In this document: positions 8,347 to 36,908 of the stretch, piece after piece
Numbering within the stretch: position 1 is the first letter of the stretch
How the letters are laid out: each line of letters begins with the position of its first letter
NCBI GenBank assembly: GCA_016235245.1
Contig: JACRLO010000019.1
Span: 1 to 64,000 of the forward strand
Source of the DNA: Nitrospirota bacterium
GTDB taxonomy: Bacteria; Nitrospirota; Thermodesulfovibrionia; Thermodesulfovibrionales; UBA6898
Length of the DNA: 64,000 nucleotides
Reading direction: 5' to 3'
Made by a program: the position numbers and the translations under genes
The notes under the pieces: generated by a model
Databases searched by the model: none
What the model saw: only the letters and a program-made list of their open reading frames with translations
What the model was told of the DNA's origin: nothing

Positions 8347-8413
8347 GCCGGCATTGCTTCGATTATAGTAGAACGTACATTGATTATTCCCTTTTTCAGT
8401 CAGGAGAACGATA

Positions 8414-9235
8414 ATGGATCTGACTAAGTATTTCAAGCCCGTTGTTTCGATGACCGCTGAAGAGGCGCGCGAGTTTATAAAGGGAAAGAACCCTGATGAC
8501 TACAATCTGATCGATGTGCGCCAGCCCGTGGAATATGAACTTCGCCATCTTGCGGGTGCCCGGCTTATACCTGTGGGTGAACTGCAGGAACATCTCAATG
8601 AAATTGATAAGGCCAAGCCGACCATAGCCTATTGAGGCTCAGGTGTGCGCAGCCGGGCGGCTGCGGCAATCCTTTCCGACTCCGGTTTTAATACGGCATT
8701 TACTATGCAGGGAGGCATCAGGGCCTGGGAAGGGCTCGTGGCCGCAGGTCCTCCAGAGGCCGGTATGGCTTACTTCGGCGATGCCGTGAAGCCTGATGAA
8801 CTTGCCATGCTTGCCTGGATACTTGAAGAGGGGTCACGGACATTCTATCTGCGTCTTGACGAATTCCTTCATGACGATGAGGCACGCCATCTGTTCCAGA
8901 GCCTTGCAAAGGCAGAGGAAAGCCACGAAAAGACCCTCGCTGAACTGTATAAAACATTCTCAGGCGGCAGTGCGCTGAAGGAGAAGCTTCCTGCACAAAA
9001 GAATGAGTTCATGGAAGGCGGCGTCAGGGTTGATGAGTCGCTCCTCTGGGCACGGGATAAGGATGTCACCTCGATCCTTGAATTCGCCATATCTCTTGAG
9101 ACGAATTCCTATGACCTGTATATCAAGATGGGACGCAGATTCGAAGGTGATGCCAGAAAAGTCTTTTCACTCCTTGGGAATGAGGAAAAAAAACATCTCG
9201 AAAGGCTGGCAGGACTGCTCGAAAAGAAAGTCTGA
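8414..9235 (+). CDS. Rhodanese-ferritin-like fusion with in-frame TGA (candidate selenoprotein)
   Basis: Read through TGA at 8633-8635, this is one 273-residue protein. Residues ~1-115 are a rhodanese domain (NLIDVRQPVEYELRHLAGA; MQGGIRAWEGL). Residues ~135-273 are a rubrerythrin/ferritin-like four-helix domain with Glu/His iron-ligand motifs (EESHE, NEEKKH). The TGA is residue 74, exactly the catalytic Cys of the rhodanese loop: Y-U-G-S-G-V-R-S against the family C-x-x-G-x-R-S. Both sides are in the same frame with no indel. A hairpin follows (8646-8668). Shine-Dalgarno AGGAGAACGATA precedes the ATG. Likely role: sulfur or selenium transfer coupled to di-iron peroxide chemistry (inference). 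If TGA were a stop, both halves would be inactive fragments. Confidence 0.85.
8646..8668 (+). promoter_or_regulatory. Candidate bacterial SECIS hairpin
   Basis: CGCAGCC (8648-8654) pairs perfectly with GGCTGCG (8659-8665) around a GGGC loop. Two further pairs (8646-8647 with 8667-8668) form across a bulged G. The loop begins 20 bases after the in-frame TGA. Bacterial SECIS elements sit inside the coding region just downstream of the UGA and have a short loop with conserved G, as here. Confidence 0.7.
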
Positions 9236-36299: not shown

Positions 36300-36908
36300 A
36301 TGAGCGAACACTATGGCATTAAAGTTGGAGAACTGGTCCCGGATTTCAAGATCGAGACGTATGAACCGTCAAGAGGTGACTTTGGAGAGATCAGCCTGGC
36401 AGAACTGAAGGCAAATAAGAAATGGACGGTGCTGTTCTTCTATCCGGCCGATTTCACCTTTGTCTGAGCTACTGAATTCGCTGCTCTGGCAGAGCAGCAC
36501 GAGAATTTCAAGGCAGCCGGCTCTGAACTTATTACTGTCAGCACCGATACGAAATTCGTACATCTTGCCTGGCAAAAGGATGAAAAGATGCTCGAAAAGG
36601 TGAAATACACCATGGGCTCAGATCCGAATGCGAGACTCTCAAAACTCTTCGGTGTATACGACAGAGAGGCCGGACTTGATCTGCGGGGAACTTTTGTCAT
36701 CAGCCCTGAAGGCAAGGTCATGAACGCGGAAGTGAACTTCTTTAATCTCGGAAGAAATATCGAGGAGATCCTCCGCAAGGTGAAGGCGAACAGCTATCTT
36801 GCCGCTCATCAGAATGAGGGCTGCCCTGCAAAATGGCAGAAAGAAGGCGACAAGACTCTTACGCCGTCTGCCCAACTGGTAGGCAAAGTATTCGAAGCCC
36901 TGAAATAG
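36300..36908 (+). CDS. Peroxiredoxin with in-frame TGA at the peroxidatic Cys (candidate selenoprotein)
   Basis: Read through TGA at 36465-36467, this is a 202-residue AhpC/Prx1-type peroxiredoxin. The TGA is residue 56 in YPADFTFV-U-ATEFAALAE, exactly the peroxidatic Cys of FTFVCPTE. The resolving Cys is kept (EGCPAKW, Cys175). The Pro after Cys is Ala. The frame is unbroken on both sides. Shine-Dalgarno GGAGGAAAG precedes the ATG. A hairpin follows the TGA (36480-36498). It should reduce peroxides with a Sec-Cys pair. The upstream zinc-ribbon and downstream AhpD-fold genes probably belong to the same unit. Confidence 0.88.
36480..36498 (+). promoter_or_regulatory. Candidate bacterial SECIS hairpin
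   Basis: GCTGCTCT (36480-36487) pairs perfectly with AGAGCAGC (36491-36498) around a GGC loop starting 21 bases after the TGA. Loop content and distance closely match the hairpin in the rhodanese gene (GGGC loop, 20 bases). Confidence 0.75.

Follow-up and report, generated by a model that had tools for sequence, protein, structure and literature searches.

The stretch of DNA analysed here (the window) comprises 64,000 nucleotides of a contig from a Nitrospirota bacterium. Positions 8414 to 9235 of its forward strand carry a gene that an ORF caller, taking stops literally, renders as two ORFs of 73 and 196 amino acids in place of one fusion. Except for the TGA at 8633-8635, a single frame is intact from ATG 8414 to TGA 9233-9235; read through, the internal TGA is residue 74, at the position of the rhodanese active-site cysteine, in Y-U-G-S-G-V-R-S. 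The fusion protein has no cysteine apart from the Sec74 position. A preliminary model-made reading of the letters (hereafter the first-pass annotation) had proposed that an in-frame TGA occupies this catalytic site and that the frame is undisturbed on either side; both proposals were borne out, since the TGA is residue 74 of a 273-amino-acid frame that stays open to the terminator and in which both Pfam domains are found. The features of the locus, together with those of a second gene further along the window, are as follows.

8402-8406, forward strand: Shine-Dalgarno-like AGGAG, 7 nt upstream of ATG 8414 (read from the sequence)
8414-9235, forward strand: gene of the predicted rhodanese-ferritin-like fusion selenoprotein, 273 amino acids, Sec at residue 74, terminator TGA 9233-9235
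8456-8731, forward strand: rhodanese domain, residues 15-106 (PF00581, E = 1.9e-17; PDB matches, e.g. the rhodanese domains of 3tp9 and 3nt6)
8633-8635, forward strand: catalytic-site TGA, interpreted as selenocysteine (alignment of TGA, TGC and TGT in 118 loci; purifying selection on both sides)
8648-8665, forward strand: bacterial SECIS-like hairpin, 7-bp stem CGCAGCC/GGCTGCG with loop GGGC (core conservation, compensatory changes)
8810-9217, forward strand: rubrerythrin/ferritin-like four-helix domain, residues 133-268 (PF02915, E = 4.7e-10; ligands; fold matches)
36300-36908, forward strand: second predicted selenoprotein, a peroxiredoxin with the motif PxxxTxxU, Sec TGA 36465-36467, separate from the fusion

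In a Pfam scan, Rhodanese (PF00581) scores 64 bits against a cut-off of 22.2, and Rubrerythrin (PF02915) 40.4 bits against 22.8. An AlphaFold2 model of the fusion, computed with 55 family members as input, has a mean pLDDT of 90.9 and a pTM of 0.90; structure comparison matches one of the modelled halves to rhodanese domains and the other to ferritin-like bundles, the C-terminal domain finding ferritin, Dps, bacterioferritin and nigerythrin folds at Z of about 16-17. The rhodanese fold and an active loop of the CxxGxRS type, which is invariant in the family, make the first half a member of the rhodanese superfamily, its sulfurtransferase function being putative. The second half is a four-helix bundle with E, ExxH, E and ExxH ligands and belongs to the ferritin-like/rubrerythrin superfamily: E138, E168xxH171, E229 and E258xxH261, which together match the ligands typical of di-iron sites in ferritin-like proteins, are each kept in 52-55 of the 55 aligned members. 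It is not a rubrerythrin sensu stricto, because the Pfam scan of the fusion protein revealed no C-terminal rubredoxin Fe(SCys)4 domain. A small Nitrospirota clade of Cys forms (L016, L017) has lost E168 and H261 and retains the rhodanese loop.

An alignment of homologues had been recommended in the first-pass annotation; 118 fusion loci show TGA (52), TGC (54) or TGT (12) at the site, and no other codon. These loci represent 104 distinct proteins, 44 with TGA and 60 with Cys. An identical TGA in dozens of separate assemblies excludes the sequencing error that had been named as a possible refutation. Among 61 related genomes, an in-frame-TGA gene was found in 11, and eight loci are stop-free. 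Across the phylum, 51 of 396 genomes contain the fusion, 22 of them with an in-frame TGA. Scanning of GTDB genomes brought up 80 loci; most come from MAGs named Deltaproteobacteria, from Nitrospirota and from Thermodesulfobacteriota, and one member each is labelled Scalindua and Neomarinimicrobiota. Among the carriers of the Sec form is a type strain in culture, Desulfospira joergensenii DSM 10085 (L117). A tree of the 104 distinct proteins, built with the site masked, contains about 16 Sec/Cys changes, at least 6 of them forced by well supported branches. When congeners are compared, dN is about 0.07-0.24 and dS about 0.8-2.8 on either side of the TGA, and since dN is far below dS, both sides are under purifying selection. 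One congener orthologue (L004, G001:C97:3213-4025) has an extra in-frame TAG in the ferritin-like domain beside the Sec TGA, which we ascribe to error or decay. Relatives also possess single-domain rhodaneses with one in-frame TGA each (G004:C31:2701, G009:C99:12605, G021:C87:27164, G017:C47:24439 and G021:C67:37420), possibly corresponding to known rhodanese selenoprotein forms.

The hairpin with a GGGC loop that had been noticed after the TGA does exist, with a 7-bp stem that starts 12 nt past the TGA: CGCAGCC (8648-8654) and GGCTGCG (8659-8665) enclose the loop (8655-8658), which starts 19 nt past the TGA. If the T of TGA is numbered 0, positions 15-21 pair with 26-32 around loop positions 22-25, and the pairs 16:31 to 20:27, all formed, make up a 5-bp core. 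This core is formed in 42 of the 44 distinct TGA members, the exceptions to the exact core being L011 and L148, versus 4 of the 60 Cys members; redrawing of synonymous codons would lead us to expect it in 0.6 of the 44. An Ala codon ends at position 29, and T occupies this synonymous site in 42/44 TGA versus 11/56 Cys members (p = 2e-15). Compensatory changes affecting both sides of the stem occur in L066 (GTAGCC/GGCTAC, T-A) and L137 (CGAAGTC/GGCTTCG, A-T). The hairpin, which the first-pass annotation wished to see checked, is therefore both conserved and covarying across relatives. Of 6 phylogenetically independent pairs, 4.5 associate the hairpin with TGA and 0 show the opposite, a comparison in which p = 0.05 is not reached. 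The folding energy of the window hairpin by itself is unexceptional (z = -1.17), and folding-energy z-scores across the family are uninformative. Of the four Cys members with the core, three (L010, L101 and L111) are nested among TGA members in the tree and, judging by sequence, seem to have reverted recently from Sec to Cys and to have kept a remnant of the SECIS signal.

The selA, selB, selC and selD genes had been described as missing from the window, rightly so; selC and selD were located elsewhere in the genome. The tRNA-Sec gene (selC) scores 70.9 bits and has, according to ARAGORN, the anticodon TCA, hence tRNA-Sec(UCA), and SelD is itself a Sec-containing form (SCAGUAAK). The genome-wide search for sel genes that had been advised thus succeeded for these two; for selA and selB it gave no match in the genome of the window, the assembly of which is a run of N where congeners carry them. 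Both genes are present in seven out of seven congeners searched. G002 and G003 have the two genes a few kb past kdsC/kdsA-like genes; in the genome of the window, synteny of this type runs to base 8000 of contig 25 and is followed by N from 8001 for at least 12 kb. Because the syntenic stretch is N, absence of selA and selB from this genome cannot be claimed. Another genome with the TGA form (G057) gave no selA or selB match; its contig stops 1.3 kb past selC, and in a relative selA/selB are found no more than 12 kb beyond the point where that contig ends. The TGA of the peroxiredoxin gene is conserved in ten out of ten related genomes and is followed by a hairpin, which supports Sec decoding in the genome of the window.

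Homologue codons, a conserved covarying hairpin, tRNA-Sec(UCA) and a Sec-form SelD all support the selenocysteine reading of the first-pass annotation, and from these sequence data we estimate at about 0.97 the probability that the window fusion is a true selenoprotein. Were the TGA an ordinary stop, an assembly error or a pseudogene mutation, the products would be a 73-amino-acid fragment and a separate 196-amino-acid ORF, precisely what mechanical ORF calling yields. But the same TGA is found in 52 loci from several phyla, alternating with Cys codons alone, purifying selection operates in one frame across it, and the hairpin is nearly restricted to TGA members; on codon pattern, hairpin and dN/dS we rejected this explanation as highly improbable. 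We give even less credence to a reassignment of TGA in this genome (e.g. to Trp) without any Sec. It would account for the open frame and nothing more, whereas at this site the homologues show Cys and in no case Trp, the genome contains tRNA-Sec(UCA) and a Sec-form SelD, and the fusion gene's own terminator is TGA; this last point led to its rejection.

As to gene neighbourhood, a gene for an ABC-F ATPase precedes the fusion in the genus of the window (window, L059, L060 and L061), and MTAP and APT genes come after it in the window; these neighbours look like housekeeping genes. In about 20 loci of Thermodesulfobacteriota type, with the fusion in its Sec or Cys form, the gene is directly adjoined by one for an FAD oxidoreductase, which resembles TIGR03169 (‘Nterm_to_SelD’) at 287.5 bits, below the cut-off of 310. 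A sulfide:quinone reductase is expected to have redox cysteines. The adjoining flavoprotein has one invariant cysteine, in GGGDC, and since this is the only widely conserved one, the redox cysteines of sulfide:quinone reductase are lacking. Out of 396 Nitrospirota genomes, 16 have the flavoprotein, 13 of which carry the Sec fusion, itself present in 22 overall (Fisher 3e-16 for co-occurrence, genomes being counted singly and kinship ignored); expressed otherwise, the flavoprotein goes with 13 of 22 Sec fusions versus 1 of 29 Cys-only fusions. In seven Nitrospirota, it lies just upstream of the fusion on the same strand, at a distance of 21 to about 220 bp; in the genome of the window the gene is present, unlinked, on a different contig. 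A standalone TIGR03169-like gene beside the fusion (e.g. L080:2750-3886) may have a bearing on the unexplained Ndh-SelD fusions. Internal-TGA flags had raised the possibility of Sec in the partner flavoprotein as well. This was rejected: L164 and L166 have no in-frame TGA in the aligned part, and the TGA of L165 is merely read-through beyond the C-terminal stop. A 17-locus cluster of apparent neighbours consisted of antisense shadow ORFs and was discarded. In one mostly Cys clade, the fusion is adjoined by a PF04116 gene (fatty-acid hydroxylase/sterol desaturase family; L099, L103, L106, L108, L119, L120, L125, L132, L134 and L136).

The fusion architecture and its link with the flavoprotein are firmly observed; the biochemical role of the fusion is at this point a hypothesis. 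The simplest reading is that the rhodanese-ferritin protein and an NADH-driven flavoprotein act together, with sulfane sulfur, selenium or peroxide as the substrate. Comparison across relatives gives good support to the decoding of UGA 8633 by Sec-tRNA(UCA) and SelB (the latter not seen in this genome), guided by the hairpin 12 nt downstream. Sec74, in the loop YUGSGVRS, would most likely accept sulfane sulfur, possibly selenium, as Sec-S-SH; alternatively, it could react with persulfide or polysulfide. Its partner, an NDH-2-like FAD oxidoreductase, may supply NADH electrons, and the E/ExxH/E/ExxH di-iron domain might reduce peroxide or O2, or else shield the oxidation-prone Sec. We consider it fairly probable that this explanation, from Sec decoding through Sec74 sulfur chemistry and the flavoprotein to the di-iron step, holds as one statement. 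A coupling of sulfur or selenium transfer to peroxide or iron chemistry, already envisaged in the first-pass annotation, is plausible because of the di-iron ligand set and the linked flavoprotein. The more specific suggestion of a sulfane-sulfur/peroxide redox enzyme working with the flavoprotein partner is made tentatively, at less than even odds. It is a still bolder proposal, and a doubtful one, that Sec-rhodanese, di-iron domain and SelD-type NADH flavoprotein would define a widespread selenoenzyme class, acting in a common pathway for the transfer of sulfane sulfur or selenium with consumption of peroxide or O2, and with repeated Sec/Cys switching in anaerobic bacteria.

Other divisions of labour can be envisaged. 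The ferritin-like domain could be the business end, as a peroxide/O2 reductase or in iron oxidation, the Sec rhodanese serving as electron donor or redox sensor. The complete ligand set in nearly all 55 aligned members, a fold like that of bacterioferritin, Dps and nigerythrin, the largely anaerobic host lineages and the peroxiredoxin selenoprotein in the same window are in keeping with this, but the invariant CxxGxRS loop is what one expects for sulfur transfer, and the Cys clade without E168 and H261 (L016, L017) keeps it; we find such a role rather unlikely. Alternatively, the fusion might carry selenium (as Sec-Se-SeH or perselenide) and, together with the SelD-linked type of flavoprotein, hand reduced selenium to SelD. 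The closest match of the flavoprotein is to TIGR03169 (287.5 bits), a domain otherwise fused to SelD (PMC2398784), in Nitrospirota it goes with Sec and not with Cys-only fusions (13/22 versus 1/29), and PMC9369223 discusses how rhodaneses transport sulfur and selenium. Against this, Desulfuromonadales and other Thermodesulfobacteriota have the same flavoprotein beside the Cys form, and most of the Nitrospirota searched have selB and tRNA-Sec without the fusion/flavoprotein pair. Moreover, a protein of Sec synthesis would itself require Sec, although SelD exemplifies just that. Selenium handling appears unlikely to us, and the preferred reading is that of sulfane-sulfur chemistry at Sec74 with the flavoprotein as partner.

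Rhodanese selenoproteins have been predicted since 2005, and a 2026 inventory of 119 families includes five rhodanese forms, of which forms 2 and 4 have UxxG and form 5 (TsoB) combines rhodanese with DsbD in a fusion and has two Sec (PMC13188914, Table 1). The statement of the first-pass annotation that bacterial rhodanese-like selenoproteins exist is thus correct (forms 1-5). The words ferritin and rubrerythrin are absent from that inventory, and the study of GOS sequences described other selenoprotein fusions as well as the Ndh-SelD fusion, but not a rhodanese-ferritin one (PMC2398784). No paper in the literature searched treats rhodanese, rubrerythrin and selenoprotein together, an earlier mention under the name ‘rhodanese form 2’ being possible. 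Thus, while Sec rhodanese is known, its predicted ferritin-like fusion seems to be without earlier description in the literature searched. None of the NCBIfam models scanned spans the fusion above its cut-off, and annotation pipelines may therefore split such genes at the TGA. The fusion would add to the bacterial selenoprotein set; its Sec and Cys orthologues number in the dozens, and the about 16 switches among these make the benefit of Sec over Cys testable in one enzyme on natural pairs. Its hosts include many sulfur- and nitrogen-cycling bacteria. In it, a site of sulfur transfer and a di-iron site are combined, and through the linked flavoprotein gene both are connected with the Ndh domain of Ndh-SelD fusions, so far unexplained.

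Compared with the known rhodanese-like selenoproteins, the fusion has in common the Sec in a PF00581 domain and the UxxG motif of forms 2 and 4; it differs from the listed forms 1-5 by the ferritin-like domain, forms 2 and 4 being compared by their published description. With rubrerythrin and bacterioferritin-like proteins it shares the four-helix bundle and the E/ExxH/E/ExxH ligands; unlike rubrerythrin, it has an N-terminal rhodanese instead of a rubredoxin domain. The rhodanese part is matched by NADH-dependent persulfide reductase/CoA-disulfide reductase (3nta, 3nt6 and 3icr; Z 15.8-16.4 over 95-97 residues, rmsd 1.9-2.0). In these enzymes, a pyridine-nucleotide flavoprotein is fused to the rhodanese, whereas here the flavoprotein, in which GGGDC contains the sole widely conserved Cys, is a neighbouring gene, and the rhodanese has Sec and a ferritin-like domain. 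Finally, the Ndh half of the Ndh-SelD fusion (TIGR03169; PMC2398784) is homologous to the partner gene, but the partner scores 287.5 bits for a cut-off of 310 and stands alone, beside a rhodanese-ferritin gene and not fused to SelD.
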